This document shows, piece after piece, positions 26,411 to 58,955 of a DNA stretch of 64,000 nt; position 1 is the stretch's first letter, and each line of letters begins with the position of its first letter. The notes under the pieces are model-generated. The model worked only from the letters and a program-made list of their open reading frames with translations, had not been told where the DNA came from and ran no database searches. Source of the DNA: Opitutaceae bacterium TAV5 (GTDB taxonomy: Bacteria; Verrucomicrobiota; Verrucomicrobiia; Opitutales; Opitutaceae). The DNA lies in the NCBI GenBank assembly GCA_000242935.3, contig CP007053.1:6061001-6125000 (forward strand), given 5' to 3'. The translations under genes and the position numbers were made by a program.

Positions 26411-26475
26411 GTCAAAAAAATGAAAATCCCGTCAATCCGGTCTAAAGACAGTCACGCCTTCGATCTGCTTTACTC
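26411..26475 (+). promoter_or_regulatory. Conserved promoter-like element, copy A
   Basis: This shares a long block with copies at 40088-40153 and 58888-58955: an A-tract, TGAAAATCCCGTCAATCC, then CTAAAGAC and, about 18 bp on, TTTACT. I read AAGACA as a possible -35 and TTTACT as a -10; the upstream block with two AATCC units nine bases apart may be the activator site. The downstream ATG (26482) is only seven bases past the element, so if this is the promoter the transcript is nearly leaderless. Confidence 0.55.
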
Positions 26476-26481
26476 GCCGTC

Positions 26482-27210
26482 ATGGAAAAACCGCCCCCCG
26501 CGATGAAACTCGAAGACCTCGAAGCCGAGCGCCAGATCGATCCCCACACGCCGCTTCCGCTGCCCGAGCAGGAAATTTGCGAGCGCTACGAAAAGATCTT
26601 CACCGCCGCGGTGAACGACGCGCTCCGCGAGCGCAAGCTCACCCGCCAGACGCTCCCCAACGGCCTCATGCCGCTGCGCGACCACATGCGCGCCGCCGGT
26701 TTCGCCTTCACTATCAAGGGCGCCAAAAACCTCCAGCTCACCAGCGAGATGGCCCGCCGCGCCGAGATGCTCGACGCCATCACGGAAAACTCGTTCGTCG
26801 TCTGGGACACATCGCTCGACACCGAATCCGCCCACTGGGGCGAGTGCATGACCATGGCCGCCCAGCGCAAACACTGCCGCGGCGCCGTCGTCGATGGCGG
26901 CGTGCGTGACACCGACCAGGTGCTCAATCTCGGCTTCCCGCTCTGGATCCGTTACCGCAGTTCCAACGGCATGCTCGGCCGCTTCCGCATCAGCGGGTGG
27001 CAGACGCCCATCCAGATGGGCGATGTTTTTGTGAATCCCGGCGACTTGATTTTTGCCGACATCGACGGCGCCCTCTGTGTTCCGCGCCAGTTCGCCGTCC
27101 CCATCCTTGAGCGCGCCGAGGAAATCGCCCACGGCGAATCCGACCTCAAGCGCTGGATAAAAGAAGGCATGTCCGCCGTCGAGATCGTGAAACGCGGCGG
27201 GTATTTCTGA
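26482..27210 (+). CDS. RraA-like aldolase/decarboxylase family protein
   Basis: The 242-residue protein has the RraA-fold blocks CRGAVVDGGVRDTDQVLNLG and NPGDLIFADIDGALCVPRQF, where the Arg-Asp pair (GGVRD) and following Asp bind metal and substrate in class II pyruvate aldolases such as HMG/CHA aldolase. True RraA (RNase E inhibitor) is shorter, about 160 residues, so an aldolase or decarboxylase role in sugar-acid breakdown is more likely. It is the first gene of an operon with a GPH transporter, two SDRs and a heparinase-like enzyme. Confidence 0.8.
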   Translation: MEKPPPAMKLEDLEAERQIDPHTPLPLPEQEICERYEKIFTAAVNDALRERKLTRQTLPNGLMPLRDHMRAAGFAFTIKGAKNLQLTSEMARRAEMLDAITENSFVVWDTSLDTESAHWGECMTMAAQRKHCRGAVVDGGVRDTDQVLNLGFPLWIRYRSSNGMLGRFRISGWQTPIQMGDVFVNPGDLIFADIDGALCVPRQFAVPILERAEEIAHGESDLKRWIKEGMSAVEIVKRGGYF

Positions 27211-27352
27211 AAAAGCCCGAAAGCTGAAGGACTGAAGGCTGCAAACCGGCCAGCCACAGTCCTTCGCGCCACAAGTCCCCATCCCATCCCTCTCATTCCT
27301 CCCTCCGTCCCTCCGCGGACCTCCAGCCTTCAGGTTTTCAGCCCCACTCTCC

Positions 27353-28771
27353 GTGTCCTCAAAACTCTTCCACAAAGTCCAGCCCACCGCCACCGAGGAC
27401 AAGGTTTCGCCCTCCCGACGCCTCGCCTACGGCATGGGCAACTTTTCCGATCACATCGGCACGGACACGCTGATGTCCAATGCCAACCCCATCTTCAACA
27501 TCGCGCTCCACATGGACCCGCGCCTGCTCGGCGTGGCCATCGCGATCATGCGCCTTTGGGATGCGATCACCGACCCCGTCGTCGGCGCCCTCTCCGACAA
27601 CGCCCGCACCCGCTGGGGCCGCCGCCGCCCCTTCATGCTCTTCGGCGCGCTCGGCGCCGGCATCACCTTTCCCCTGCTCTGGCTCGTGCCCGGCGGTCTC
27701 TCGCCCACCGGGGTCTTTGTCTGGTTCACCGCTTTCTCGATTCTTTTTTTCACCTTCCAGACCTTCTTTACGATTCCCTGGACCGCCCTCGGTTTCGAAC
27801 TCACGCCCGACTACAACGAGCGCACCCGTGTCATGGAACTGCGTGCCTACATGGGCACCGCCGTCGGACTCGTCGTCCCCTGGACCTACGCCTTCACGCA
27901 ACTTCCCGTCTGGGGCGGCAGCACCATCACCGGCGCGCGCTGGATGGGCGTCTGCGTCGGCATCCTCATTATCCTCTCCGGCCTCATCCCGGTGATTTTT
28001 CTTCGCGAACGTTTTTTCAAAAAAGCGCAAAACCAGGGCCAGATTCCCATTCTGAAATCGATCGGAATGACCCTGAAAAACAAGCCCTTCATCATGATGG
28101 TGCTCATCACCTTTTTCACCGTGGTGGGAGGGCGCACCGTCAACCACCTAGGCTTCTACATCGGGCTCTATTATCTCTTCAACGGCGACACCGTCAAACA
28201 AGGCGTGCTCGCCGGCGTGGGCGGTAATGTCGGCCTCGTCATCGGCCTGGCCTCGGTCTTCTTCCTCAACCGCCTTTCCCAACGTATCGGGAAACGCAAG
28301 ACGCTCGCCCTTTGCCTGATCCTGCTGGTCATCAGCGGATTTGCCAAGTGGCTCTTCTACACGCCGGAAAGCCCGTGGCTCAGCCTTGTGGTGCTGGCCT
28401 TCACCGTGCCCTCCGGTTCCGGCTTCTGGTTGCTCATCGCCTCCATCAAGGCCGACATCTGCGACGACGACGAACTCAACACCGGCTACCGTCGTGAAGG
28501 CGCCATCGGGGCCGTTTCCGCGTGGATCTCCAAACTCTCCACCTCGGCAACCGCCGTCCTCGCCGGATTCGTGCTCGCCGTCACCGGTTACCACGCCGCC
28601 TCCGGCTCCGCCCAGGCCGCCGGTGTCGTCGATGCGATGCGCTGGTGGTTCTACATCATCCCCTCCGCCTCCGCCATCATCGCCCTTTTCCTCCTCTGGT
28701 GGTTCCCCATCACCGAAGAACGCGCCCGCGAAACCCGCCGCCTCCTCGAAGAACGCCGCGGCAAGCTCTGA
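27353..28771 (+). CDS. GPH-family (MelB-like) sugar:cation symporter
   Basis: The 472-residue protein has about 12 membrane segments and GPH signatures: RLAYGMGNFSDHIGTDTL at the N-terminus, IAIMRLWDAITDPVVGALSD and RTRWGRRRPFMLFGA. GPH carriers import glycosides or uronides with Na+ or H+. The start is GTG, preceded by a pyrimidine-rich leader. The neighbours (RraA-like, SDRs, heparinase-like) suggest an acidic-sugar substrate. Confidence 0.9.
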   Translation: MSSKLFHKVQPTATEDKVSPSRRLAYGMGNFSDHIGTDTLMSNANPIFNIALHMDPRLLGVAIAIMRLWDAITDPVVGALSDNARTRWGRRRPFMLFGALGAGITFPLLWLVPGGLSPTGVFVWFTAFSILFFTFQTFFTIPWTALGFELTPDYNERTRVMELRAYMGTAVGLVVPWTYAFTQLPVWGGSTITGARWMGVCVGILIILSGLIPVIFLRERFFKKAQNQGQIPILKSIGMTLKNKPFIMMVLITFFTVVGGRTVNHLGFYIGLYYLFNGDTVKQGVLAGVGGNVGLVIGLASVFFLNRLSQRIGKRKTLALCLILLVISGFAKWLFYTPESPWLSLVVLAFTVPSGSGFWLLIASIKADICDDDELNTGYRREGAIGAVSAWISKLSTSATAVLAGFVLAVTGYHAASGSAQAAGVVDAMRWWFYIIPSASAIIALFLLWWFPITEERARETRRLLEERRGKL

Positions 28772-28800
28772 ACATTTTCTCCAACACACCAACACACACC

Positions 28801-29514
28801 ATGAAAGACCGCATCATTGTCATCACCGGAGCCGGCGGCGGATTTGGCCGCGCGCTCATCGACACCCTCGCCCCGCAAGGCGTCCGCCTCGCCCTCGCCG
28901 ATCTCGGCAGCGCGCCCCTCGCCGAACTCGCCGGCCAGGCCCGCAAACTCGGCGCCGCCGATGTCGTCACCGGCGCCGTTGACATCACCGACGAAGCCTC
29001 CACCGCAGCCTTCTTCGCGAGTGTTAAACAAAAATTCGGACGCGCCGACATCCTCATCAATCTCCCCGGCATGTCCATCGCCGCGCCCGTCGCGGACATG
29101 CCCGTCGAGTCCTACGACAAGATCATCGACGTCAACCTGAAGGGCCTCTTCCTCGCCGCCAAGCACTTCATCCCGTTGACCGACCCGGCGCAAAACCCGC
29201 TCATCAGCTTCATCAGTTCGCAGGCCGCCACCCGTCCCAATCCCAACGCTCCCGTTTATTGCGCCGCCAAGGCCGCCGTTTCCGTTTTCGGTCAGGGGCT
29301 CGCCCTCCAGGTGATGAAGCAGAACATCCGCGTCACCTCGATCAAACCCGGCCCGGTCAATACCGTCGGTTTCTGGGGCGACCGCCCCGTGCCGCGGGAA
29401 AAGTTCATGCAGGCCGCCGACGTCGCCAACGTCATCAACTTCATCCTCACGCTCCCGTCGCACATCGTCATGCACGAGGTCAGCTTCGAGTCGTTCGAGT
29501 TCTTCAAAAAATAA
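28801..29514 (+). CDS. Short-chain dehydrogenase/reductase
   Basis: The 237-residue classical SDR has the cofactor motif TGAGGGFG near residue 9-16 and the catalytic YxxxK as Y153-K157 (VYCAAK), with the serine in ISFISSQA. The usual NNAG is replaced by NLPG. Such enzymes oxidise or reduce sugar or uronate intermediates; the substrate is not evident. It lies 29 bp after the transporter gene and 39 bp before a second SDR, in one operon. Confidence 0.88.
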   Translation: MKDRIIVITGAGGGFGRALIDTLAPQGVRLALADLGSAPLAELAGQARKLGAADVVTGAVDITDEASTAAFFASVKQKFGRADILINLPGMSIAAPVADMPVESYDKIIDVNLKGLFLAAKHFIPLTDPAQNPLISFISSQAATRPNPNAPVYCAAKAAVSVFGQGLALQVMKQNIRVTSIKPGPVNTVGFWGDRPVPREKFMQAADVANVINFILTLPSHIVMHEVSFESFEFFKK

Positions 29515-29553
29515 CCGCGCACCCTCGCCGGCATCTGTCACACTCCGCCCGTT

Positions 29554-30294
29554 ATGCCTACGCACACCTATCTGCAGTCCTCCAAAGACAAGGTCGTCGT
29601 CATCACGGGCGGATCCACCGGCATCGGTCTCGAAGCCGCCCGCCTCTTCGCCGCCGAAGGCGCCCGCGTGACGATCCTCGCCCGCGGCGCCGACAAACTC
29701 GCCGCCGCTATCGAGAACCTCGCCGCCACGCCCGAGGCCGGCATCGCGCGCGACCGTCTCCACAGCGCCGCGGTCGATGTCACCGATGAAGCCGCCGTGC
29801 AAGCCGCTCTCGCCGATATCGAACGCCGCGATGGCCGCATCGACATCCTCGTCAACAATGCCGGCGTCGGCTTCGCCACCGACCTCGCCAGCGTCGGCAC
29901 CGACGACTATCGCCGCATCATCGACACCAACCTCACCGGAGTCTTCCACGCCGTCCGCGCCGTTCTCCCGGGCATGAAAGCCCGGAAGTCCGGCCACATC
30001 ATCAACGTCTCCTCCATTGTCGGCAAAATCGCCAATCCCGTGGCGCCGATCTACTGCGCCAGCAAACACGCTCTCAACGGCTACACCTCCGGACTCCAGC
30101 AACAGGTCGCTGCCGACAACATTCGCGTCTCGCTCGTGTCTCCCGCCTCTGTCGATACCGACTATTGGGCCGGACGCACCGTGGACCGGGCCAAATTCCT
30201 GAAACCCGCCGAAGTCGCCGCCGCGATTCACTTCATCGCCGCCCAGCCCGAAGGCGTCCTGATCAAGGATCTCGATCTCGCCGCCCTCCGCTGA
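29554..30294 (+). CDS. Short-chain dehydrogenase/reductase
   Basis: The 246-residue classical SDR has TGGSTGIG (18-25), NNAG (NNAGVG), a catalytic serine in INVSSIVG and Y167-K171 (YCASK). It is not a close duplicate of the preceding SDR gene, suggesting that the two catalyse successive steps. It is cotranscribed with the GPH transporter and the heparinase-like enzyme. Confidence 0.88.
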   Translation: MPTHTYLQSSKDKVVVITGGSTGIGLEAARLFAAEGARVTILARGADKLAAAIENLAATPEAGIARDRLHSAAVDVTDEAAVQAALADIERRDGRIDILVNNAGVGFATDLASVGTDDYRRIIDTNLTGVFHAVRAVLPGMKARKSGHIINVSSIVGKIANPVAPIYCASKHALNGYTSGLQQQVAADNIRVSLVSPASVDTDYWAGRTVDRAKFLKPAEVAAAIHFIAAQPEGVLIKDLDLAALR

Positions 30295-30388
30295 TTCTAC
30301 CCACAAGTCCCATCCGTCCTCTACGTCCCATGTGTCCCATCAGTCCCATGGGACTCCCCCTCATCACTCTGTCAACCCGCTCGCCACC

Positions 30389-32527
30389 ATGCCACTGTTC
30401 CTCACCGATACCGAAAAAACCGCCTTCGCCGCCGCCCGCGCCCAAAATCCCGCCCGCGCCTTCTTCTGGACGCTCGTCAATCGCGCCGAACGCCGCGCCG
30501 CCAGCCCCTCGCTCGCGACCGGCGAAACCACTACCGACTGGTGGCATTTTGTCGGCGAATACATCACCGATGCCGCGATGGTCCACGCGCTGAAACCCTC
30601 GCCCGCCCTCGACGCCTGGCTTCGCGCCAACACCCTCGCCATTGCCCGCCGTCCGGTCGCCGACTGGGTCGGGCCCGCCTTCCGCAACCACACCAAAAAC
30701 CCGCCCATCGGCCACCTCGAAACCGCCCACCTTTCCTGGGCCGTCGCCGCCGCTCTCGACCTCGCCGGCGACATCTTCACCGAAGCCGAGCGTAACGAAC
30801 TCACCACGACACTCCGCGACACCGCCATCCCGCTCTGCCAGCGCTGGCTCGACGACGGCAACCACCTCGCCAACTGGCGCTGCGTCCTCAACGCCGGCGT
30901 CGCCACCGCCGCCGCCGTCATCGGCGACACCGCCGCGCTCGACCGCGCCGCCGCCGAATTCCACCGTTGCGTCGATGTCTTCCAGCCCGACGGCTCTTAC
31001 GGCGAGTCGCTCCAGTACGGCAACTACGCCGCCTACACCCTCATGCTCGCCCGCGAGGCCCTCACCCGCCACACGCCCGCGCTCGACGCCACCCTCCCCC
31101 TCGCCCCCTACGCGCTGAAACCCCGTTGGGATGCCGCCTCCCATTTTTACACCAAACCCCTCAGCGACTGGGGTTCTTACCCGCGTCCCCGCGCCGCCAA
31201 TTTCAACGATTCCGCCGCCCTCTACCGCGCCTCCGCCGACCTCCTCCTGCACATCGCCACTCGCGCCAAAGAAAAACACCCCGCCGAAGCCGGCCTCGCC
31301 CGCTGGCTTTTCGACACCCACTATACGCCCTGCATCGAGCAACCTCCGCACGACCAGGCCACCTTCGGTTTCGTCAACGACTTCGGCTTCCTCACGCTCT
31401 CCCTCCTCCCCGCCGCACTCGCGACCGCTCCCCTCGCCCCCTCCGCCCCCGAAGCCGGCATCGACCTCGCCGCCGGTTTCAGTTGCGGCGACGTCCTCGC
31501 CCGCGACGCCTGGCCCGAAAACGGCGGACGCACCATCCTCGCCGTCCATGGCGCCCCCGATCCCCTCCATGGCCCCGGTCATCTTCACGGCGACCTCAAC
31601 AGCTTCATCCTCGTGCACAACCGGGAACGCCTCCTCGTTGACCCGGGCCATTCCTGTTACCGCAACCTCATCCACGAACTCGAAGCCCGTACCAACACCC
31701 ATAACACCTGTACCTTCACTGTCGCAAGTGGCGCGGGCGTCCCGCCCGCTACCCCCGACCTCAAACTCCAGGAAGACCAACACCTCAACCGCGAACTCGA
31801 ACAAACCCGCACCGCGCGCCGTCTTTTCGACCGCGCCACCGGCAAAGCCGACGCCCCGGTCACCCGCGGCGGCCGTTCCTCCGGCAACGAGCGCCGCACC
31901 CTCCTCGCCCGCGCCGGCCGCGTCACCGCCATCGCCAGCGAAGCCGCCGCGCTCTACGGAGCCCCGCTCACCGAGTTTACCCGCCTCTGGCTCCTCTGCG
32001 GCACGCACGCCCTTTTTGTCATCGACCGCATCCGGGCCGATGTCCCCGTGACGACCACCTGGCACTGGCTCCTCAACAACCGCGACAACGCCCTCGACCT
32101 CAAGCTCGTCCGCCCGGACCGCCTCGTCGCCCGCCGCGGCAACGCCGGCATGAAGCTCTTCCACTGCGCTGGCGGCAACATGATGGCCTACCCCATGTAT
32201 TCGTATGTCCATGACGCCTATCACCCGCTCCCCAACCAGCTTGGCGAAGGCAAACCCGGCAGCGGCCTCCTCGTCCGCTGGACGGACAAAACCCCCGCCA
32301 CCGACCGCCTCGCCGTCCACGCCATCTGCGTCGACGACCCCGGCGCCACCGCCGGCTGGCACCTGAAAACGCCCGCGCCCGACACCACCGCCCTCGAAAG
32401 CCCCGGCGCCACCGAAACCTGGACCCTCACTCACGCCGACCCGGCCCGCCTCGTCCTCACCGAAAAAACCACCGGCGAAACCCACACCGTCACCCGGTCC
32501 TCCGACGGCACCTGGATCCTCGCCTGA
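30389..32527 (+). CDS. Heparinase II/III-like polysaccharide lyase
   Basis: The 712-residue protein has an N-terminal alpha/alpha barrel-like part (WDAASHFYTKPLSDWGSYPR, FVNDFGFLTLSLLP) and a C-terminal beta-sandwich part with the heparinase II/III hallmark HGPGHLHGDLNSFILVHNRE and HNTCTFTV, similar to uronate-cleaving lyases. No signal peptide is obvious from the chosen ATG (30389); the frame opens slightly earlier, in a TCCCAT-rich leader. Residues around 447-454 (SGAGVPPA) are encoded by a short piece of the palindromic repeat family, which suggests an in-frame insertion. Confidence 0.8.
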   Translation: MPLFLTDTEKTAFAAARAQNPARAFFWTLVNRAERRAASPSLATGETTTDWWHFVGEYITDAAMVHALKPSPALDAWLRANTLAIARRPVADWVGPAFRNHTKNPPIGHLETAHLSWAVAAALDLAGDIFTEAERNELTTTLRDTAIPLCQRWLDDGNHLANWRCVLNAGVATAAAVIGDTAALDRAAAEFHRCVDVFQPDGSYGESLQYGNYAAYTLMLAREALTRHTPALDATLPLAPYALKPRWDAASHFYTKPLSDWGSYPRPRAANFNDSAALYRASADLLLHIATRAKEKHPAEAGLARWLFDTHYTPCIEQPPHDQATFGFVNDFGFLTLSLLPAALATAPLAPSAPEAGIDLAAGFSCGDVLARDAWPENGGRTILAVHGAPDPLHGPGHLHGDLNSFILVHNRERLLVDPGHSCYRNLIHELEARTNTHNTCTFTVASGAGVPPATPDLKLQEDQHLNRELEQTRTARRLFDRATGKADAPVTRGGRSSGNERRTLLARAGRVTAIASEAAALYGAPLTEFTRLWLLCGTHALFVIDRIRADVPVTTTWHWLLNNRDNALDLKLVRPDRLVARRGNAGMKLFHCAGGNMMAYPMYSYVHDAYHPLPNQLGEGKPGSGLLVRWTDKTPATDRLAVHAICVDDPGATAGWHLKTPAPDTTALESPGATETWTLTHADPARLVLTEKTTGETHTVTRSSDGTWILA
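31729..31751. repeat. Repeat-family fragment inside the heparinase-like gene
   Basis: GTGGCGCGGGCGTCCCGCCC followed by GC in the coding strand matches the arm of the palindromic element at 5160-5329, differing at one position. It encodes GAGVPPA in frame. It may be a relic of an inserted palindrome. Confidence 0.5.
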
Positions 32528-32647
32528 AGGAGCGGCGGCATTCCTGCCGCTGCGACGAGGCGCGAACAGCGCCTCGCCGTCCTGGCTACCGGAAACCACA
32601 GCACCGCCCGCCGGCCTGCCATCGTTCGCACACAACGGACCTTCCCC
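32526..32647. repeat. Repeat cluster between the heparinase-like and LacI genes
   Basis: The first part (about 32528-32565) is an arm of the GGAGCGGCGGCATTCCTGCC family. The second (32611-32647), beginning CCGGCCTGCCATCGTTCGCA, recurs directly at 38016-38052 after a PEP-CTERM gene. The stretch lies between convergent genes. Confidence 0.5.
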
Positions 32648-33670: not shown

Positions 33671-33674
33671 TCTA

Positions 33675-33688
33675 TTTAACGTGGTAAA
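33675..33688. promoter_or_regulatory. Possible LacI operator
   Basis: TTTAACGTGGTAAA matches its reverse complement at 10 of 14 positions and has the size of a LacI-family site. It lies just before the LacI start and 65 bp before the divergent pseudopilin gene. Confidence 0.35.
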
Positions 33689-38923: not shown

Positions 38924-40099
38924 ATGTCCGCCGCCGAAATCAAGGCCACTGTGGAGGCAGCCCGTCGTTTCATGCGGCGTGCCCATCTGTTCGACACGCC
39001 GGCGCCCGATGTCGCCACCGCTCTCGCGCATCACGGTTACATCCAGATCGACCCCATCAACGTCTGCGGACGCATGCACGATCTCATCCTGCGCAATCGC
39101 GTGGCCGGTTACCGGGAAGGTGACCTGATGCGCCACTTGCACGGCGAGGAAGGCAACCCGCAAGACGCGACCACGCGCATGGCATTCGAGCACCACCTGC
39201 CCTCCAGCCACATTCTCGTGGCATTCCCGCAAGACGCCTGGCCGCACCTGCTCGGGACCATGGAGGCCCGCACTCGCCAGTCCGGCGCGTGGTCCGGCCG
39301 GCTCACACCCCGTGAAAAGGAATTTGCTCCCCGGCTGCTGGAGGAACTCGCCTCCCGCGGACCGCTCTCCTCCGAAGATTTGCACGATGGTCGCCGGACC
39401 ACACGCGGATGGGGAGCCAGCACACTCGCCAAATCCACACTCCAGAAACTCTTCTTCCATGGTCGCGTGCTCATCGCCGCCCGTCGTGCCCAGCGGCGTT
39501 ATTATGCGCTGCCGGAGCGTGTGCTGCCTGCCGCCACGCTCGCCCGGCCCCGCCCTGATCCGGAGGAAACGGCCCGCTGGCTCGTGCTCGCCCGCCTGCG
39601 CCAGCACCGGCTCGTGCTCCTCAAAAAGACGGAGCTGCCTCTGGTCGAGGATCGGGTGCAGGCGGTCGCCGTCGAAAACGGCCTTCGTCTTCACTGCCTC
39701 CGCGAGGATGCCGGCGTGTTTTCCCTTCCGCCGGCTCCCGCCGTCGGTCTCCGGGAGACTGCCACCACTTCCATCCGGCTGCTCGCGCCGCTCGACCCGC
39801 TGATTTATGACCGGCGCCTCACGGCCCGGTTGTGGGATTTCAACTACACCTGGGAGGTTTACACGCCTGCGCCCAGGCGCGTGCGCGGGTATTACGCGCT
39901 TCCCGTCCTGTCCGGCCACGACTTTGTCGGCCACGTGGACCCGAAAGCCGACCGGTCCGCCGGCCGGCTCCTCGTCATGGGCCGCTCCGTGCGCCGGGGT
40001 CATGCCGCCGGCGACGCGGTGAAGGAACTGGCGCGTTTCCTCGGAATGCGCCAGGTTGCATCTCTCCCTGCCCGCGAGGGCAGTGGATCAAAAAAATGA
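38924..40099 (+). CDS. YcaQ/AlkX-like winged-helix DNA glycosylase
   Basis: The 391-residue protein has the HTH_42/YcaQ family pattern: GYIQIDPINV with the catalytic QxD motif (Q41, D43), RMHDLILRNRV, LLAPLDPLIYDRRLTARLWD, FNYTWEVYTP and RGYYALPVLSGHDFVGHVD. Family members excise alkylated bases or unhook interstrand crosslinks; QxD rather than QxQ fits the AlkX branch. The last codons and TGA stop lie within the first bases of conserved element copy B, so the two overlap. Confidence 0.82.
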   Translation: MSAAEIKATVEAARRFMRRAHLFDTPAPDVATALAHHGYIQIDPINVCGRMHDLILRNRVAGYREGDLMRHLHGEEGNPQDATTRMAFEHHLPSSHILVAFPQDAWPHLLGTMEARTRQSGAWSGRLTPREKEFAPRLLEELASRGPLSSEDLHDGRRTTRGWGASTLAKSTLQKLFFHGRVLIAARRAQRRYYALPERVLPAATLARPRPDPEETARWLVLARLRQHRLVLLKKTELPLVEDRVQAVAVENGLRLHCLREDAGVFSLPPAPAVGLRETATTSIRLLAPLDPLIYDRRLTARLWDFNYTWEVYTPAPRRVRGYYALPVLSGHDFVGHVDPKADRSAGRLLVMGRSVRRGHAAGDAVKELARFLGMRQVASLPAREGSGSKK

Positions 40100-40153
40100 A
40101 AATCCCGTCAATCCGCGCTAAAGACACGGCGTGCGGGATTTGTTTTAATCACC
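40088..40153 (+). promoter_or_regulatory. Conserved promoter-like element, copy B
   Basis: The A-tract, TGAAAATCCCGTCAATCC and CTAAAGACA block are followed by TTTAAT at 40144-40149, 17 bp after AAGACA (40121-40126). AATCCCG and CGGGATT are inverted arms across the core, as in copy C. The element lies about 80 bp before the Zn-dehydrogenase start and overlaps the end of the preceding coding region. Confidence 0.6.
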
Positions 40154-40234: not shown

Positions 40235-41251
40235 ATGAAAGCCGCTTACTACGAAGGTAACAAAACATTCCGCGTCGCCGATGCTCCCGCCATTCCGCCG
40301 GCCCCCGGAGAAGTCCGCCTCAAGGTCGCCTACGTCGGCATCTGCGGCACCGACGTCCACATCTATCACGGGCACATGGACCAGCGCGTCAAAATACCTC
40401 AAATCATCGGTCACGAGATGTCCGGCACCATCGCCGAGGTCGGCCCCGGCGTCACCGGCTTCGCCGTCGGCGATTCTGTTGTTGTCCGCCCGCTCGACAA
40501 TCGCGCCGAAACGCCCGCCGACCGCGGCAACAGCCACATCTGCCGCAACCTGAAATTCATCGGCATCGACTCGCCCGGCGGTTTCCAGACGTACTGGAAT
40601 GTTCCCGCTTTCGCCGTCCACAAGGCTCCGCCTGCGACCGATCTCAAGCTCGCCGCGCTGGCCGAACCGCTCGCCGTCGCCTGCCACGACGTGCGTCTCG
40701 GCGGCGTCAAGCCCGGCGAACTCGCCGTCGTCATCGGCGGCGGCCCCATCGGCATCCTCGTGGCGCTCGTCGCCCGCGCCGCCGGTGCGCAGGTCATCAT
40801 CAGCGAAGTCAACGAACTCCGGCTCGCCTTCGCCCGCTCGCTCGGCTTCGAGGCGCACAGCCCGCTCGCGACCGACCTGCCCGCGCTTTGCCGCGAGAAA
40901 AGCGGCGACGCCGGGGCCGACATCGTTTTTGAAGTGTCCGGCGCGAAATCCGCCGCCGCCACCATGACCGACCTCCTCGCCATCCGCGGCCGCATCGTCG
41001 TCGTGGCGATCTACCCCAAACCGGTTGAAATCAACCTCCACCAGTTTTTCTGGAAGGAACTGAAACTCATCGGCGCCCGGGTGTATGAACGTGAGGACTA
41101 CGAAAAAGCCCTCGCCCTGATCGCCAGCCGCGAGCTCCCGCTCGAAAAACTCGTCACCCGCGTCGAACCGCTCACCCGCATCCAGGCGGCCTTCGACAAC
41201 CTCGGCAGCACGCCCGATGCGATGAAAATCCTCATCGACTGCCAGGCGTAA
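40235..41251 (+). CDS. Zinc-type medium-chain alcohol dehydrogenase
   Basis: The 338-residue protein has catalytic-zinc motifs GICGTD (C37) and GHEMSG (H60-E61), and the NAD(P) motif VVIGGGPIGILV (165-176). The structural-zinc loop that normally holds four Cys is reduced to one (C103), so that site is absent. It resembles threonine or L-idonate/galactitol dehydrogenases that oxidise sugar acids or polyols. It heads an operon with a GH28-GH105 fusion, a 2-hydroxyacid dehydrogenase and an esterase, downstream of element copy B. Confidence 0.88.
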   Translation: MKAAYYEGNKTFRVADAPAIPPAPGEVRLKVAYVGICGTDVHIYHGHMDQRVKIPQIIGHEMSGTIAEVGPGVTGFAVGDSVVVRPLDNRAETPADRGNSHICRNLKFIGIDSPGGFQTYWNVPAFAVHKAPPATDLKLAALAEPLAVACHDVRLGGVKPGELAVVIGGGPIGILVALVARAAGAQVIISEVNELRLAFARSLGFEAHSPLATDLPALCREKSGDAGADIVFEVSGAKSAAATMTDLLAIRGRIVVVAIYPKPVEINLHQFFWKELKLIGARVYEREDYEKALALIASRELPLEKLVTRVEPLTRIQAAFDNLGSTPDAMKILIDCQA

Positions 41252-41370
41252 ATCTGGCGGCATTGTTCCCTTCCGGACAACGATCAGGTCGAACCAACCT
41301 GGTCGGATCCGGCCGGTCTTTCATCACCGTGAAACGCCGTCTGCCTGCCGTCGTCCGCACCATCACGCCC

Positions 41371-44121
41371 ATGTCAGTCTTCACCCCTTTCGCGCTTCCC
41401 GTGCCGCCCGTCATCCCCGACCGGCGGGTGGACATCCGGGATCACGGCGCACACCCCGGCGGCGCCCTCCTCAACACCCGTGCCATCGCTGATGCCATCC
41501 AGGCCTGCGCCCGCCAGGGCGGCGGCCGGGTCGTCGTTCCCTCCGGCATCTGGCTCACCGGCGCCATCCACTTCCGCAGCCGCATCGACCTCCACCTCGA
41601 AGCCGGAGCCGAGCTTCGTTTCAGCCAGAATCCCGACGATTACCTGCCCCCCGTGCTTTCCCAGCGCGGCGGCGTCATGATCTACAACTACTCGCCCTTT
41701 CTCTACGCCCACCGTTGCGAGGATATCAGCATCACCGGCGCGGGCCTGCTCAACGGGCAGGGACAAAGCTGGTGGCCCTGGAAGCACTCCCAGCCCGGCA
41801 TGTCCAGCATCCAGGGCCCCGACAACTTCGCCGCCCTGCGCACTCCTCTGGAAGAGCGGGTGTTCGGTACGCGGGAGGCCGGGGTGCGCCCCGTCTTCTG
41901 CCAGCCCATCGAATGCAAACGGGTGCTCATCGAAGGTGTCACCTTCCGCGACAGCCCCTCCTGGACACTCCAGCCCGTCTGGTGCGCCGATCTCACCCTC
42001 CGCCACTCCACCATCCTCAACCCGCCCTCGCCCTTTTCCCACAACACCGACGGCATCGACCCCGATGCCTGCCGCAACGTCCTCATCGAACACTGCGTCG
42101 TCGATACCGGGGACGACGCCATCTGCATCAAGGCCGGGCGCGACGAAGACGCCTGGGAGGCCGGCATCCCCTGCGAAAACATCCTCATCCGCCACTGCGA
42201 AATCCGCTCCGGCCACGGCGGCATCACCATCGGCAGCGAAATGTCTGCGGGCGTGCGCAACCTGCACGCCCACGACTGCACCTGCGATGGCACCGACACC
42301 GCCATCCGCATAAAAACCAAACCCGGGCGCGGCGGCTTCATCAAAGACATCCTCATCGAGAACATCACGGCCCGCCGCATCCGCCACGCGGCGGTGGAAC
42401 TCACCTTCCACTACGGCGACACGCTCGAAAAACCGCCCGATCCCAAAAATCTCAAGCACGTGCCCGCGGTGGAAAACATCCTCATCCGCAACGTGCGCTG
42501 CGACTCGGCGCGGGAGGCTCTGCACCTGCGCGGCCTGCCCGGTCATCCGCTGAAAAACGTCACCCTCCAAAACCTGGAAATCCACGCCTTCCAAAACCCG
42601 CTCCGGGAGGCGATGGAAACCCTGCGCGAGGAACGGGTGATCCTCCATCCGCTCGCCTCGCCCGACATCCTCCGCCACCCGCCCCAAATCCCCGCCGCCG
42701 TAGCCACCGCCCGCCGCGTCGCCGACATCATCGAAGCGCCCGAAATCCTCTTCCCGCCGGAAAAGCGTCCCATGGCCCGCCGCCGGGTCATCCCCGTGGC
42801 CCCGGCCGAAACAGGCCCCGCCCGCCTGCGCTGGAAACCGGCCCCCGGCGTCGGCACTGTCCGCCCCATGAGCCTGCGCATCGTCGCCGCCGTGGACGAA
42901 CGCGTTCCCCATCAGGTTGACGTCGCCAATGCCGCCACCGGCGAGCACTACGGCGCCATCGACGTGCTCTACGCCTGCCCCGGCCAGGTTTTTGAACTCG
43001 CCCTCACCACGGAACAGACCGCCGCCGCCCTCCGCGACGGTCTCTCTCTCAGCGCGAAGAACGGAGCGTCCCCTCTCTGGATTGTCGCCCCCGGCCCCAA
43101 CGCGCCTGATGCCGTCCTGCCCCAGCTCTACGCCGACAACGCCCCGCCCACCCTCGAAAACTTCCTCGCCCTCTTCTGTTCCGCCGCCTCCCTGCAGCCT
43201 TGCGACTGGATGGAAATCTGCGTCCTCGACGGCCTGTTCGACTGGGCCATGAAAGGCCGCAAGGACGCGCAGCAGACCGTCTTCGACCACCTCGACACCT
43301 TCCTTCACCCCGGGACCGGCCAGCGCGAGAACATCCGAAGCCACCCCTGCGACGACGAAGCCGGCGGCCCCGAGTCCACCGGCCCTTTCGCCATCCTTGC
43401 CGCCCTCGCTCCCGGACACCCCGCCCTGCGTTTCGCCGATGAAGGTTTCGAAAAACACCTCCGCCCCGGGACCGGAACCATCGGGCTGAATACCATTGTC
43501 ACGGAAAGTAACTACAATATCGCCTACCCCATGATGATGATGGCGACCGAGGCCGGACGCGCGGACTTGCGCGAACGTGCCCTCCGCCAGCTCGAGGTCG
43601 CCCGTGAACGGCTCACCGCGCCCGACGACCTTTACCTCCGGCACTTTTTCGATACCGGCGAAAAAACCTTCCGCAACTGGAGTCGCGGCGTCGCGTGGTA
43701 TTACCTCGGCCTCGTCCGCACCCTCGCCCTGCTTCCGCCAAAAGAACGTCCCGCATCGCTCGTCGCTGAAGCCGGACGCGTCGCCGCCTGGGTCACCCGG
43801 CATCAACTGCCCGACGGACTCTGGCCCTGCTTCCTCAAGGAAAACGATCTTCTCCCCGACTCCTCCGGCAGCGCCGGCATTGCCGCCGCCCTCGCCCTCG
43901 GTGTCCGGCACGGCATGGTCGATGCCTCTCTCCTTCCCGCCGCCGCCAAAGCCTTCGACGGCCTGATGACCTTCATGACGCATGACGGCTGGCTTCGCGG
44001 CACCGCGCAGAGCAACAAAAGGGAAACGCACCACATGGACATCCAGCGCTCCACTTTCCGCGTCATCGCCCCCTGGGGCATGGGCCTTTTCGCGCAGCTC
44101 GCCGCCGCCCTCGACCATTGA
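41371..44121 (+). CDS. GH28-GH105 bifunctional pectin-type hydrolase
   Basis: The 916-residue protein has an N-terminal GH28 polygalacturonase beta-helix with D227 (NTDGID), D248-D249 (DTGDDA), H282 (GHGG) and R313-K315 (RIK), all catalytic or binding residues. A linker with proline and arginine precedes a C-terminal GH105/GH88-like barrel (about 585-910: TESNYNIAYPMMMMATEAGR, WSRGVAWYYLGLVRTL, DSSGSAGIAAALAL). The fusion would cleave galacturonan-like chains and then process the released unsaturated or terminal residue. The ATG at 41371 is preferred over an upstream TTG. No signal peptide is obvious. Confidence 0.87.
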   Translation: MSVFTPFALPVPPVIPDRRVDIRDHGAHPGGALLNTRAIADAIQACARQGGGRVVVPSGIWLTGAIHFRSRIDLHLEAGAELRFSQNPDDYLPPVLSQRGGVMIYNYSPFLYAHRCEDISITGAGLLNGQGQSWWPWKHSQPGMSSIQGPDNFAALRTPLEERVFGTREAGVRPVFCQPIECKRVLIEGVTFRDSPSWTLQPVWCADLTLRHSTILNPPSPFSHNTDGIDPDACRNVLIEHCVVDTGDDAICIKAGRDEDAWEAGIPCENILIRHCEIRSGHGGITIGSEMSAGVRNLHAHDCTCDGTDTAIRIKTKPGRGGFIKDILIENITARRIRHAAVELTFHYGDTLEKPPDPKNLKHVPAVENILIRNVRCDSAREALHLRGLPGHPLKNVTLQNLEIHAFQNPLREAMETLREERVILHPLASPDILRHPPQIPAAVATARRVADIIEAPEILFPPEKRPMARRRVIPVAPAETGPARLRWKPAPGVGTVRPMSLRIVAAVDERVPHQVDVANAATGEHYGAIDVLYACPGQVFELALTTEQTAAALRDGLSLSAKNGASPLWIVAPGPNAPDAVLPQLYADNAPPTLENFLALFCSAASLQPCDWMEICVLDGLFDWAMKGRKDAQQTVFDHLDTFLHPGTGQRENIRSHPCDDEAGGPESTGPFAILAALAPGHPALRFADEGFEKHLRPGTGTIGLNTIVTESNYNIAYPMMMMATEAGRADLRERALRQLEVARERLTAPDDLYLRHFFDTGEKTFRNWSRGVAWYYLGLVRTLALLPPKERPASLVAEAGRVAAWVTRHQLPDGLWPCFLKENDLLPDSSGSAGIAAALALGVRHGMVDASLLPAAAKAFDGLMTFMTHDGWLRGTAQSNKRETHHMDIQRSTFRVIAPWGMGLFAQLAAALDH

Positions 44122-44155
44122 GTATCCAATCCGCCACTCTCCCGGCTCTCCATCC

Positions 44156-45148
44156 ATGAAAAAAATCCTGTTCGCCTGCACCATCGAAGATCCCTCCGCC
44201 CGCGCGCGTATTGAAAAAGTCACCACGCTCGTCGAGGCACCCGAAGCCGGCACTCCGGAAAAAATCCTCGCCGCCGCCGTCCGCGAGCACGCCGAGGCGA
44301 TCATCGTGCCCTTCACCGCGCAGCACCTCATCACCCGCGAAGTGATCGACGGCCTGCCCGGCCTCAAACTCATCGGCAGCACCTACGGAGGAGTCCGCCA
44401 GAACATCGACGAACTCCACGCGCTCGCCAAGGGCCTGTGCGTCATCCACACCGGGCCCACGCGGGTGCGTCCGATGGCCGAGTATACGCTGGCGCTCGCT
44501 CTCACCGCCCTCACCCGGATTGCCAACTACCATCACTGCATGCGCAGCGGCGAAGTCTGGCCGCGCATGAAATTTGGCCGCACCCGCATCCTTCACAACC
44601 GCAAGGTGGGCGTCATCGGCTTCGGCTGGATCGGCAAAGGCATCGCGGAGCTTTTTCGCCAGTTCAGCGATCACGTCGTGGTCCATTCCGAACACTCCAC
44701 CGAGGCCGCGCTGCGCGAGCAGGGATTCCGCAAGGCGGCTTCGCTGCTCTCGCTGTTTGCCGAATGCGAAGTCATCATCCTCGCTGGCGGGCACAACCCC
44801 AGGACGCATCACATGATCCGCCGCGAACACTTCGAGGCAATGGCCGACGAGGCCCTTTTTATCAACATCGCCCGCGGCAAGATGGTGCGCCAGGAGGACA
44901 TGATCGCCGTGGTGGAAAAGAAAAACATCCTGCTCGCCCTCGACGTTTTCGAGGAGGAGCCGCTGGAGGCCGACAGTCCGCTGCGACGCAACGACCGGGT
45001 TCTCCTCGCGCCGCATCGCGCCAACGCTCCGCGCGAGTTCGAACAACGCTGGCAGTTTCTCGCCGACGAACTGGAGCGGTTCGCCCGCGGCGAACGCCCG
45101 CTCACCGCGCTCAACGTGGACCGCGCCAAGGTCATGAGCGAATCCTGA
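44156..45148 (+). CDS. D-isomer 2-hydroxyacid dehydrogenase
   Basis: The 330-residue protein has the NAD motif GFGWIGKG (155-162) and the active-site set: R240 (NIARGKMV), a Glu cluster at 266-268 (VFEEEPL) and H287 (APHRAN). It is related to phosphoglycerate and glyoxylate/hydroxypyruvate dehydrogenases. In this pectin-type operon it may reduce a keto acid derived from galacturonate. It is 34 bp after the fusion hydrolase gene and 26 bp before the esterase gene. Confidence 0.88.
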   Translation: MKKILFACTIEDPSARARIEKVTTLVEAPEAGTPEKILAAAVREHAEAIIVPFTAQHLITREVIDGLPGLKLIGSTYGGVRQNIDELHALAKGLCVIHTGPTRVRPMAEYTLALALTALTRIANYHHCMRSGEVWPRMKFGRTRILHNRKVGVIGFGWIGKGIAELFRQFSDHVVVHSEHSTEAALREQGFRKAASLLSLFAECEVIILAGGHNPRTHHMIRREHFEAMADEALFINIARGKMVRQEDMIAVVEKKNILLALDVFEEEPLEADSPLRRNDRVLLAPHRANAPREFEQRWQFLADELERFARGERPLTALNVDRAKVMSES

Positions 45149-45174
45149 TGCCTTTTGCACCGCCAACCTCTATC

Positions 45175-46086
45175 ATGAAACACCTGCCTCCTCTTTTCGC
45201 CGCTCTTGCCATGTCCACCCTCCTCGCCACTGCCGCCCCCGGCATTGAAAGCGACATTTCCTACCTCGGCCCCGATCGCGCCGAAAAACTCGATGTCTGG
45301 CTGCCCTCCGCCGACGCCTTTCCCGGCCCCCACCCCGCTGTGCTCCTCATCCACGGCGGCGGGTGGCGCGGCGGCGACAAGGCCGCCGCTCGCGAAAAAA
45401 ACATCGGCAACACGCTCACCTCACACGGCTACGCGGTCTTCTCCATCAACTATCTCCTCAACGTCGGGGAAAACGACCCCGCCACCGGCAAACTGAAACT
45501 CACCCGCCTCGCCTGGCCGCAAAACCTCTACGATTGCAAGACCGCCCTGCGCTTCATGCGCGCCAATGCCGCCCGCTTCAACATTGCCCCCGACCGCATC
45601 GCCGTCATGGGCGGCTCCGCCGGCGGACACCTTGCCCTGCTCGTCGGCGCCACCGCCCGTCACGAGGAGTTCAACCGCCACGGTCTCTACACCGACCAGT
45701 CCAACGCCGTCTCGGCCATCATCGACTTTTACGGCGACTACGACATCCGCGGCCGCCGCGTCTCTCCCTTCGCCGGCGCCACCCCCGAGGAAACCGCCGC
45801 CAATGAAACTGCCGCCTCCCCCATCACCTGGATCGACAAAAACACCCCGCCCGTGCTCATCGCCCACGGCTCAGCCGACAAAACCGTCTCCGTCGAACGC
45901 TCGCGCCTCCTCGCCGAACACCTCCGGAAACTCGGCCTCGACTACTGGTATGTCGAAGTCGGCGGCGCGCCGCACACCTTCCACCTCCAGCCCAAGCAGA
46001 TGGACCTCCGCCCCACCGTGCTGGCCTTCTTGGAAAAACACCTCGGCAAACCGGCGGCCACCCCGGTTCCCCTACCGGCCCCATAA
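45175..46086 (+). CDS. Secreted alpha/beta hydrolase (BD-FAE/esterase-like)
   Basis: The 303-residue protein has a signal peptide (LFAALAMSTLLATAAPG), oxyanion HGGG (60-63), nucleophile S148 (GGSAGG), D235 and H267 (PHTFH), a complete triad of the carboxylesterase/BD-FAE type. It may remove acetyl or feruloyl groups from pectin or xylan side chains. It is the last gene of the operon starting at 40235. Confidence 0.87.
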   Translation: MKHLPPLFAALAMSTLLATAAPGIESDISYLGPDRAEKLDVWLPSADAFPGPHPAVLLIHGGGWRGGDKAAAREKNIGNTLTSHGYAVFSINYLLNVGENDPATGKLKLTRLAWPQNLYDCKTALRFMRANAARFNIAPDRIAVMGGSAGGHLALLVGATARHEEFNRHGLYTDQSNAVSAIIDFYGDYDIRGRRVSPFAGATPEETAANETAASPITWIDKNTPPVLIAHGSADKTVSVERSRLLAEHLRKLGLDYWYVEVGGAPHTFHLQPKQMDLRPTVLAFLEKHLGKPAATPVPLPAP

Positions 46087-50682: not shown

Positions 50683-51050
50683 AGAAAGACACAAATGTGT
50701 CTCTTTTGAGCCAAGGTCAACCATCAGGGTCTGTCAGTGTGCATCAGTGGATCACCGGCAACTCGAACCGCCCATCGCCTTCGAAAAAGCCGGCGTCGGC
50801 CGCTGCCGAAAAGCCCTCCGTTACCTGGCTCGCCTACGGCTCGTCGATCACCCATTCGCATCATGGCGAGTATCCCTACCACGCCGCCCGCCTCCTCCGC
50901 TGGAACGTGGCCGACATCGTCACCGCCGCACTCGGCGTGAACACGCGCGGCGGCCCTTGCTGTTCCCGGGCGCTGGCCCCCGACCATTTTCCTGATGGTC
51001 AGCTGCCAGTTTCATCATCCGCCTGGATTGCCAGGGGGTGAAACTGTCGA

Positions 51051-51386: not shown

Positions 51387-51749
51387 CAATCAGGCCTGAG
51401 AACCGGGCCATCCACCCTCAACAGAAGCAGCGTTTCGCCAGGATTCTCCAATACCCGATGATAGCTGCGAAGGTAACGGAGCGCAGCAGAGCGGAGAAGG
51501 CGTCGCCGCAGGCGATGGCCCGAAGGGCTGGGCGTGGCAACGCCCACAATTCGCAGGCTCCGGGGGGGGGGAGCGCGGGAGTAATGGAGCGGCAGCGTCC
51601 CGCCGCTCCGGACCGTAGGGGCGCACTTTTACTGTCTTGTGCGCCCGTTCCCCTTTGCGCCCGCCATTCTCGCGCCCCGCGTGACGACTTCGAGCGACCG
51701 CCTGCGTTCGATCATGAACGCCTGAAGCCTTTCCTTCTGTTGGACCTGG

Positions 51750-52862: not shown

Positions 52863-52956
52863 TTGTGACATTTGTGTGTTATGGTTAACGCATCCTGTCA
52901 ATTGCGCTCCGAAGCAAATGATTTTGAAAGGCTGTCTACTTCACCCTGTTATTACT

Positions 52957-53835: not shown

Positions 53836-53883
53836 CACGGCTTCCACTCTTTCCCCGACTTATCCTTCAAAATCAAATTCATC

Positions 53884-54582: not shown

Positions 54583-54661
54583 TTCGTCCCCGTTGCGCTC
54601 CGCCTCAGCAGACCGATGCCTTCCTGCTGATCATTGCCACCATTCCCCTTTCATTTTATCC

Positions 54662-57100: not shown

Positions 57101-57115
57101 CGACCTATTATCTGG

Positions 57116-57360
57116 TCACAGATCAAAGATCGGAAGTCCAAGTTTGCCCGCTGCCTCCAACTGCCACCACAGATAGAGGAATGACCTCGCAAATGTCTTG
57201 GGATCTTCCGTGGACTCGCGCGCCAGATCTTCCGGAGTGATCCAGCGCCCGTCGTCGATTTCCTCCGGATGCAGTGTAAACGGCCCCTCGTGTTCCAGTC
57301 GATAAACCCACACAAACTCCCAAGCCGTCTCCCGGGCACGGGACGGCGCGCAACCAGCGC
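57116..57360 (-). pseudogene. Nudix hydrolase remnant
   Basis: On the minus strand, ETAWEFVWVYRLEHEGPFTL followed by HPEEIDDGRWITPEDL matches the C-terminal half of Nudix (YfcD-like) hydrolases, but the catalytic Nudix box and N-terminus are missing; upstream sequence does not restore them in any frame. It lies within the gene-free stretch 57101-57501 and is probably a deleted copy. Confidence 0.65.
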
Positions 57361-57501
57361 GATGGAGGATTCCATGCGCGGCGTGTTCTTTTGTGCCTTT
57401 TTGTGGCTGTCAAATCCGGCATTTCCTTCTTCTTTCTGCGCATTCTGTTAACTTACCAAACCAGAACTAATGACAATCGACAGCTCTTCGGCCGGCGCAG
57501 G

Positions 57502-58794
57502 CTATGGCGCCGCGAGATATCGGGAACGAAGATTTTCTATCGCCTGAAAAACCTCGTCGGGGATCTTTTTCAGCGGCTCGACGCCGCGCCAGTGTTGTCC
57601 TGAAACGAATTTTTCAATCGCCGGATTGCCCGTGCGCTCGCCGTTAAATTCGCGGAAAATATCGCGAAGCGCGTCAAAATCGGCGGCCACGCGATCGGGC
57701 TTGCCGCCAAAATTTTTCTCGGGCTGGCGTTTGTTGAAACTGCCAAGACGTCCGATGAAACGTTCCGTTTCCTGCGCGTTCATCGGGAAAAAAACCAGGT
57801 AATACAGGACGTGAATGTTGTCCGCATCCGTCGGACGGAAGTGGTGGAGTTCGCGGGTGAGGAACTCTTTTTTCCGGGCATCCGGTTTCCATTCGTCGGA
57901 CGAGGGCGCGAGAAGGCGCACGACGGGAGGCGTCAACGTCGGCAATTTTTCACGGGCGCGCGCCTCGTTTTTGTTGAGTGATTTGTTTTCGCCGAAGAGC
58001 GGACGCGTGGCGATGTAGCGGTCGAAGGGATCGAGGCGGATGGAGAAGGTGGCTTTCCCGATGACGCCGCCCGCCCAGCTCGCGCCGGTGGCAGTCACAT
58101 AACTGAACCATTCGACCATGCAGTCAGCCAGGTTTTCCTGCCAGTCGGGGTAATCCGTGTCGGGCCACTTCTGTCCCGGCCGCCAGTAGGTCGCCCCCAT
58201 GCTGACAGCAATCGGTATCTGGTAAGAGACGCGCAGGTTTTTGGTTTCGTCGGGAGCGAAATCCATATCCCACATAAAAAGGCTGCGGAATTTTTTCTTT
58301 TTGTCGCCGGGAACATGGCGTAGCGAATACGTGCGCTGGCCGTCGTGCGCGACGAAGCGGTAATGTTCCACATGCGCCCCAAGGTCGGTATTTTGGGCGT
58401 CGGGACTGCGATCTGCTTCGAGATACTCGCTGTCGAGCGGGAACCCGACTTGCACGCTCACAGGCTCGGCGCGAAGGTTCTGGAGAACGAAGTGACAGGT
58501 AAAACTCACCCGGTCGAGCCCGGGCAGTCCGCCGTCAAACGGTTCGCGTCCGCGTCCTGGCACGATCGTTACGGTTTCGCTGACCATCCGGATATCGTCG
58601 TTCCGGATGAGTTCGATATCGTAACCCGAACCGCCAAAAACCCCGGCGTTGGCGGAGAGTTTTGAGGGGACCGCCATCACAACAATCCACAGGCAAAGGA
58701 TGCCCGTAATGTTCGGATAACGCGTGCCGACCGGCTGCACCCGGTGGCGAACGGAAGAGCGCCAGGCGAGAGGAAAACACAGGTTCATCAACAT
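57502..58794 (-). CDS. Exported protein of unknown function
   Basis: The protein (about 430 residues from the Met at 58792-58794; an upstream start is possible) has a hydrophobic signal-like segment (ITGILCLWIVVMAVPSKLSA) followed by NAGVFGGSGYDIELIRNDDI. The mature part is rich in aromatic and Asp residues (SMGATYWRPGQKWPDTDYPD, ASWAGGVIGKATFSIRLDPF) and has no recognised catalytic motif. It looks extracytoplasmic. It is isolated between the Nudix remnant and kduD. Confidence 0.55.
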   Translation of the reverse strand: MLMNLCFPLAWRSSVRHRVQPVGTRYPNITGILCLWIVVMAVPSKLSANAGVFGGSGYDIELIRNDDIRMVSETVTIVPGRGREPFDGGLPGLDRVSFTCHFVLQNLRAEPVSVQVGFPLDSEYLEADRSPDAQNTDLGAHVEHYRFVAHDGQRTYSLRHVPGDKKKKFRSLFMWDMDFAPDETKNLRVSYQIPIAVSMGATYWRPGQKWPDTDYPDWQENLADCMVEWFSYVTATGASWAGGVIGKATFSIRLDPFDRYIATRPLFGENKSLNKNEARAREKLPTLTPPVVRLLAPSSDEWKPDARKKEFLTRELHHFRPTDADNIHVLYYLVFFPMNAQETERFIGRLGSFNKRQPEKNFGGKPDRVAADFDALRDIFREFNGERTGNPAIEKFVSGQHWRGVEPLKKIPDEVFQAIENLRSRYLAAP

Positions 58795-58887
58795 GCAGGC
58801 GAACCTGTTACCCGGCCTTGCCGATGTCAAAAGAACAACGGCAGGGTATCCGGAGAGATGCATGACCCGCACCTGCGAGCCCGGCAC

Positions 58888-58955
58888 GTCAAAAAAGTGA
58901 CAATCCCGTCAATCCGCGCCAAAGACGCGGGAGGCGGGATTTGCTTTAATCACTC
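58888..58955 (+). promoter_or_regulatory. Conserved promoter-like element, copy C
   Basis: It carries an A-tract, TGACAATCCCGTCAATCC, CCAAAGACG and TTTAAT at 58945-58950, 17 bp after AAGACG (58922-58927). AATCCCG and CGGGATT form inverted arms across the core as in copy B. kduD starts about 80 bp downstream. Confidence 0.6.

Follow-up and report, generated by a model that had tools for sequence, protein, structure and literature searches.

We analysed a 64,000-nucleotide stretch of the chromosome of Opitutaceae bacterium TAV5 (positions 6061001-6125000, hereafter the window), in which an element of about 65 bp occurs three times on the + strand, each time upstream of a co-oriented gene: copy A precedes the gene for an RraA-like protein, copy B that for a Zn-dependent dehydrogenase and copy C kduD, and a gene for an AraC-type regulator lies divergently beside copy A. 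The organism comes from the termite hindgut, according to PMC4358385. The three places had been pointed out in an earlier note on this DNA, and the recurrence is far above chance, as TGAAAATCCCGTCAATCC with up to three mismatches matched three times in the window against 0.02 times expected from shuffles. Copy starts (26412, 40088 and 58889) are given as the first T of TCAAAAAA.

We searched the whole genome (chromosome 7,317,842 bases; 7,417,673 in total with the second contig) for further copies. The core common to copies A, B and C had no other occurrence in the 7.4-Mb genome with up to one mismatch, and two additional copies, D and E, first surfaced in a pattern search. A sequence-only model of eight sites gave exactly five genome matches, scoring 67.8-79.9 bits, the next match being at 13.1 bits. 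The short core AAAATCCCGTCAATCC with up to three mismatches matched 124 times, against 9 for the reversed pattern; because the full-length model gives nothing between 67.8 and 13.1 bits, all of these except the five full copies were discarded. All five copies are upstream of metabolic genes and oriented with the gene that follows, whose start codon lies 7, 85, 80, 178 and 29 nt past the -10 box in A, B, C, D and E, respectively. The shared regulon suggested by the earlier note is therefore kept at a larger extent, since its three copies were too few and the five in the genome reach beyond the window.

Five similar copies of about 65 bp in one genome might also be a dispersed repeat or small mobile element lying by chance before genes, and copies B and C are 80% identical across 82 bp, with the ends of copy B loosely inverted by eye. 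Only five full copies exist in 7.4 Mb, however, all in the same orientation before metabolic genes, and copies inside unrelated genes, sought as a sign of such a repeat, were not found in the genome. The spacing of half-sites and promoter boxes is constant, and similarity fades outside the block. The element also occurs in related genomes: it is kept in orthologous promoters of the related genome G001, and ten relatives have one copy at a homologous place. A dispersed repeat is hardly credible on this evidence.

The clusters behind the copies (Table 1), called operons here from co-orientation, have as their predicted theme the degradation of unsaturated uronides derived from pectin or other acidic glycans of that kind, to judge by GH88, GH28, heparinase II/III-like (HepII/III), KduD and oligogalacturonate-lyase-like (OGL) members; we only infer the exact substrate and inducer. 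Acidic-sugar use had been proposed earlier, and the copies do precede uronate- or pectin-type sugar-acid genes. No NCBIfam model at its cut-off names the step of the RraA-like protein. The glcD product behind copy D scored 491 bits with TIGR00387, under the cut-off of 567.9. Copy E is followed by a putative gene of oligogalacturonate-lyase-like type, so named from its sequence although Pfam gave no family for it, and by an acetyltransferase gene.

Table 1. Element copies, promoter boxes and genes (window positions unless marked otherwise; GH, glycoside hydrolase; SDR, short-chain dehydrogenase/reductase; MFS, major facilitator superfamily)
Feature	Position	Strand	Remarks
Element copy A	26412..26474	+	half-site 1 26412-26429, half-site 2 26432-26449; precedes RraA-like gene
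Copy A promoter boxes	26445-26450; 26466-26474	+	-35-like AAGACA; extended -10 TGC-TTTACT
Element copy B	40088..40149	+	half-site 1 40088-40105, half-site 2 40108-40125; precedes Zn-dehydrogenase gene
Copy B promoter boxes	40121-40126; 40144-40149	+	-35-like; -10 TTTAAT
Element copy C	58889..58950	+	half-site 1 58889-58906, half-site 2 58909-58926; precedes kduD
Copy C promoter boxes	58922-58927; 58945-58950	+	-35-like; -10 TTTAAT
Element copy D	6130128 (chromosome)		5 kb beyond window end; precedes glcD-glcF
Element copy E	6626422 (chromosome)		0.5 Mb away; precedes OGL-like gene
AraC-type regulator	25454..26377	-	C-terminal double helix-turn-helix, N-terminal cupin-like domain; proposed binder of element
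RraA-like aldolase-family gene	26482..27210	+	first behind copy A; first start codon 26482; PF03737 104.6 bits
MFS sugar transporter, two SDRs, HepII/III-like protein	27353..32527	+	rest of cluster A
Zn-dependent dehydrogenase	40235..41251	+	first behind copy B; start codon 40235
GH28-GH88 fusion, D-2-hydroxyacid dehydrogenase, BD-FAE-type esterase	41329..46086	+	rest of cluster B
kduD-like 2-dehydro-3-deoxy-D-gluconate 5-dehydrogenase	59031..59798	+	behind copy C; start codon 59031; TIGR01832 322 bits, just under cut-off 338.85
GH88-family gene	24295..25422	+	PF07470 166 bits; without own element
IclR-type regulator	~23371-24150	-	divergent from GH88 gene

Anatomy of the element

We aligned 16 sites from ten genomes; copy A and the site of G615 each have one inserted base, located in the spacer past the operator. 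The conserved pattern is a tandem direct repeat TCAA-N8-AA with a 20-bp period. All 16 sites have TCAA at 0 and +20, TG at +9/+10, C at both +30 and +37, A at +32 and G at +35, and their -10 hexamers all begin and end with T. The consensus half-sites are TCAAAAAAGTGAAAATCC and TCAAGCCGCGCTAAAGAC, and the operator spacing is constant throughout. The second unit reads C[CT]A[AT]AG[AC]C at +30 to +37 with a one-letter exception in G179, and the second half-site ends in a -35-like AAGACR or TAGCCA. Taking AAGACR as the -35 box, a spacer of 17-18 bp leads to an extended -10 of the form TGnTTTAAT (TG in 15 of the 16 sites, TTTAAT in 9, the other hexamers being variants). Two tandem half-sites, the second running into a weak -35, followed by an extended -10, make up what is, by its sequence, an AraC/XylS-type promoter layout.

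The promoter-like reading in the earlier note was borne out by these boxes 17-18 bp apart, the -10 being of the extended TGn type. AAAGAC was confirmed at the same offset (+32) in all three window copies, and the gap from it to the -10 measures 19 nt in A and 18 nt in the other two. The pair of AATCC units put forward as an activator site, nine bases apart, had to be replaced by the TCAA...AA repeat of 20-bp period, as AATCC is not conserved outside the genus. The inverted arms AATCCCG/CGGGATT are complete in copies B and C as described, and otherwise only in the G001 copy of B. In copy E and the corresponding G001 site the right arm is intact but the left one is altered, so the two arms are not conserved together, and with 3 of 16 sites complete they were rejected as an operator or hairpin. 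Copy B does overlap the end of a gene, the TGA stop (40097-40099) lying inside the element, but the gene is AlkZ-like (PF06224, DNA-glycosylase family) and not alkX.

A riboswitch or leader RNA was likewise rejected, as a search of the window at gathering scores gave no Rfam match. The -10 box of copy A sits only those 7 nt before the first possible rraA start, or 28 nt if the second in-frame ATG is used, so that there is hardly room for a leader RNA. Separately, a stretch 65 bp upstream of the copy D start (L016:1425-1457) holds a half-site-like ACAAAAAAATCAAAC and then GTGATTTG, without a second half-site; it may be an additional AraC site or a degenerate copy.

The upstream A-tract, the -35-like hexamer with its 17-18-bp spacing and the extended -10 could also belong to a plain constitutive or alternative-sigma promoter with a UP-like A-tract and no dedicated activator. 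The most conserved bases, however, include the TCAA pair 20 bp apart, outside the -35 and -10 boxes, and the -35 hexamer differs between sites (AAGACA, TAGCCA) that all keep the second half-site. The presence of the element moreover tracks one AraC gene across the phylum, as described below, and we consider a plain promoter very improbable.

The neighbouring AraC-type gene and its distribution

The regulator encoded beside copy A has a C-terminal double helix-turn-helix of about 100 amino acids (HTH_18, PF12833, 84.7 bits against a cut-off of 33.6). Its AlphaFold model (predicted local distance difference test score, pLDDT, 86.6) matched AraC-type DNA-binding domains in the PDB with target template-modelling (TM) scores of 0.69-0.90, and the N-terminus matched the BgaR sensor domain (target TM 0.63-0.67) and cupins. 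Whole-chain matches to Rns and ToxT reached TM of only 0.30-0.38, so the predicted domain arrangement is tentative. As modelled, a cupin-like sensor joined to a double helix-turn-helix fits a sugar-acid sensor.

The proposal that this neighbouring protein is the likely regulator agrees with the distribution of the element, which co-occurs with araC and adjoins it across genomes. All 10 other genomes with an AraC protein at least 50% identical carry the element upstream of araC, including two of another class (G682 and G744), in which the finding is model-independent. Among 252 family genomes, AraC matches at an expectation value (E) of 1e-40 were obtained in 17, with at least 57% identity in this genome, G001, G180 and G179. 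These four also carry the element: a site model, R1, gave strong matches in this genome (G000), G001 and G180 and a weak one (18.2 bits) in G179. Among 384 class genomes, AraC was matched at 1e-40 in 8 and with at least 55% identity in 6, and exactly those 6 carry the element (E 0.001). Among 288 phylum genomes, AraC was found in 7 and with at least 50% identity in 6, and exactly those 6 scored at least 44 bits with a second model, R2. The next score was 22.2, and weak R2 matches up to this value occurred in 9 phylum genomes. The class and phylum draws overlap, as G000, G092, G331 and G432 are in both.

Because R2 holds the sites of all six class genomes, finding those is no test, while its silence in other genomes is one, and the free tests are an eight-site matrix and the two phylum genomes G682 and G744. 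The latter were used neither for R2 nor for the matrix; their elements scored 44-45 bits with R2, were the top matrix site of the stretch and lie ~80-90 bp from araC. The matrix, built only from 8 sites of this genome and G001, was applied to 17 loci of other genomes with ~5,000-7,700 positions each and ranked the araC-divergent site first in 13 of them, whereas 20 column-permuted matrices averaged 2.35 loci and did not exceed 6. Left out of this count are L095 and L096, which share the araC upstream region of L094; L093, which a contig end truncates; and L111 (a partial AraC copy).

The promoter of the RraA-like homologue carries the element in G001, G180, G384 and G234. G001 has it before RraA, Zn-dehydrogenase and OGL genes, and there the copy before the Zn-dehydrogenase ortholog lies behind a reading frame without a real AlkZ match (186 nt available).

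Weaker matches were set aside. A pattern with AAAGAC matched 8 genomes of 95 relatives against 1 for the reversed control, and single three-mismatch matches in G075, G089, G033, G023, G034 and G038 were discarded as chance, as was a Pyrinomonadaceae match at bases 24-48 of its contig without the rest of the element. At E 0.5, R1 matched 114 of the 252 family genomes, nearly all weakly; of nine of these loci viewed by eye, L053 and L057 were kept and L054, L055, L056, L058, L059, L060 and L072 dropped. Nothing was found in the 10.8 kb surrounding a weak match on contig C207 of G001. In distant AraC relatives (42-47%; araC upstream regions L085-L090), the gene behind the site resembles, by eye, a TonB-dependent receptor, and downstream of the promoter lies another stretch (TCAA...CAA) similar to a half-site.

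Another regulator might bind the element. KdgR, of the IclR family, regulates pectin genes in other bacteria; one IclR-type gene is located at a distance of 2 kb from copy A, with a homologue near copy A in G001 (69%), and a different IclR-type gene (33%) is divergent from copy E in G001. When the IclR protein of the window was used as a query (E 1e-8), however, no match was found in the 13-18-kb stretches around the element of 10 other genomes, the search covering these stretches and not whole genomes, while AraC is present there in 10 of 10. The site is also a tandem direct repeat without a conserved palindrome, the inverted arms being incomplete in most sites, whereas a KdgR-like operator would be a palindrome. 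An IclR-type or other regulator in place of AraC is thus improbable.

Single clusters in relatives and scattered copies in TAV5

In ten genomes (G179, G180, G331, G092, G615, G432, G384, G234, G682 and G744), one element lies between araC and one co-directional cluster. The gene order in G682 is GH88-RraA-SDR-HepII/III-ZnDH-OGL-acetyltransferase-KduD-2HADH, where ZnDH and 2HADH denote the Zn-dependent and D-2-hydroxyacid dehydrogenases, and most other single-element relatives have most of these genes. G384 has fewer of them, and its SDR and KduD matches are short; we saw no OGL in G180, whose kduD is further along the same contig; the view of the G179 cluster ends with its 13-kb contig. In seven of these relatives (G179, G331, G092, G615, G432, G682 and G744), the gene directly following the element is a GH88 homologue.

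In TAV5 this set is split, with RraA-MFS-SDR-SDR-HepII/III behind copy A, ZnDH-GH28/GH88-2HADH-esterase behind B, KduD behind C, and OGL and the acetyltransferase behind E. Four of the five copies (A, B, C and E) therefore precede pieces of the single cluster of the relatives, and copy D precedes glcD-glcF, whose nearest G179 homologue is on another contig. In an AraC tree, which has partly open inner forks and does not include G682 and G744, this genome and G001 fall inside a supported group (98/98) of nine. Because they nest there among seven members that all have a single cluster, the split arrangement is most simply regarded as derived.

We then compared letters that are free to vary. At 10 core positions free in other genomes, the five copies agree at 0.78 against 0.28 among single-copy genomes. 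At 13 free spacer positions they agree at 0.42 on average over a background of 0.22; B, C and E, which have the spacer variant CGGGATTTG in common, reach 0.58-0.83, and A agrees only at 0.17 with C and E. In the flanks outside the block the agreement is 0.30 against a background of 0.22. Since agreement is high inside the block and the flanks are barely alike, the comparison speaks for copying of a block bounded near TCAA on one side and near the -10 on the other, and B, C and E may descend from one secondary copy. The near-background flanks and the low spacer agreement of A would also suit copies that arose independently under selection by AraC, and a genus-specific AraC preference could explain part of the shared core letters. 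Set against the core agreement and the B, C and E spacers, an independent origin is unlikely, though it keeps a real share of the probability. Our moderate preference is that a ~65-bp operator-promoter block, single in ten relatives, was multiplied in the genus as the cluster broke up, which would have left most pieces under control of the one AraC, glcD-glcF being added by another copy.

Taken together, the element is very probably an activator-dependent promoter block of the AraC protein encoded at 25454-26377, a block that would ancestrally have served one divergent operon and later have been copied before its pieces. An AraC dimer would bind the two tandem half-sites of 18-20 bp and would probably be switched on by a uronate breakdown intermediate in its cupin domain. 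Because the second half-site runs into the weak -35, the dimer is expected to contact RNA polymerase, which would start from the extended -10. In the ancestor, a single element would have separated araC from a single divergent operon acting on unsaturated uronides. On its break-up in the genus, copies of the block would have come to lie before the RraA, Zn-dehydrogenase, KduD and oligogalacturonate-lyase-like clusters, and one before the recruited glcD-glcF pair.

Several observations weigh against this interpretation. Most of the sites that R1 and R2 find had gone into building them, and the matrix did not rank the site first in 4 of the 17 loci (L089, L090, L092 and L097; second in L090 and L092). 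G234 has the element, missed by R1 and found by the matrix, although its AraC is only 36% identical, and no site was found at a partial second AraC copy in G615 (61% over 144 residues, L111). The kduD (92%) and glcD (91%) orthologues of G001 are without the element, and none was found at the TAV5 GH88 gene at 24295, which may have passed to IclR control. The poorest -10 hexamers are those of G179 and G384. A first look counted 119 AraC-like candidates in this genome, so another AraC protein could share the sites, and in a tree of the sites 0 of 13 inner branches were starred, so it gives no order of copying.

Other repeats in the window and known systems

Four further repeats were noted in the window. 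A 119-nt repeat (3270-3388 and 15724-15842), 97% identical, lies between called genes, has internal inverted arms TTTTACACCAAGGCCGCAAAG and looks like a dispersed element resembling repetitive extragenic palindromic (REP) sequences. A GC-rich unit around GCAGCGGCAGGAATGCCGCCGCTCC is present in three copies in both orientations (11232-11259, 11325-11352 and 32526-32564), 97-100% alike. At 63088-63177, a near-perfect 30-bp hairpin TCCCGTAGGGGCGCACTTCACGTGCGCCCG, 97% complementary, is flanked by a resistance-nodulation-division (RND) adaptor gene and by a reading frame that looks, by eye, like a pump. Two copies of 112 nt with 87% identity, at 49414-49655 and 50794-50954 are each followed by a second common stretch (93%) at different offsets; the first is inside a GDSL-type reading frame, suggesting a duplicated gene fragment.

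Among the papers that we found on AraC regulons, pectin, KduD and heparinase in Verrucomicrobia, none describes this regulon or its operator, to judge by titles and the opening lines of abstracts. It is well supported by the comparisons above that this is a predicted AraC-type regulon, whose kind is known and whose member and evolutionary layout are new. It provides a defined, predicted pair of regulator and operator, with conservation across two classes of one phylum in the genomes that carry it, and the pair would serve a uronide cluster in which the RraA-like, SDR and Zn-dehydrogenase steps are unexplained by names. It is also a natural case for how genes stay co-regulated after operon breakage, as genomes of living bacteria show both the state before (one operator, one cluster) and the state after (a dispersed set of pieces, most of them with the same block).

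Conserved operons are known to break up in some lineages, as in the operon life-cycle and operon-splitting concepts. A conserved cluster broken up in one lineage fits this, but here most pieces carry a copy of one promoter-operator block. KdgR is an IclR-type repressor of pectin and uronate catabolic genes (kduD and relatives), a target set like that of the present element, which differs in its AraC-type protein and tandem direct repeats.

The layout is closest in form to promoters of AraC-type activators in Pseudomonas. At XylS/Pm, a pair of direct repeats (box A and box B, each of 15 bp and 6 bp apart) takes two AraC-type monomers beside RNA polymerase, as described in PMC5481539, whose reference list includes a title on the overlap of activator and polymerase sites. 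Tandem direct half-sites next to the RNA polymerase site are common to both, the present element being known from sequence; the half-site letters are TGCA...GGTA for XylS and TCAA...AA here, where the period is 20 bp, the inducer is likely a sugar acid, and a divergent cluster and dispersed copies occur in Verrucomicrobia. For MtlR/PmtlE of Pseudomonas fluorescens, PMC4514859 gives AGTGC-N5-AGTAT-N7-AGTGC-N5-AGGAT upstream of the -35, with a poly-A tract directly after the first repeat. The tandem repeat with an A-tract is shared, as in TCAAAAAA, whereas MtlR has a period of 22 bp (counted from the consensus), other letters and mannitol as inducer, and that paper treats one promoter where five are present here.

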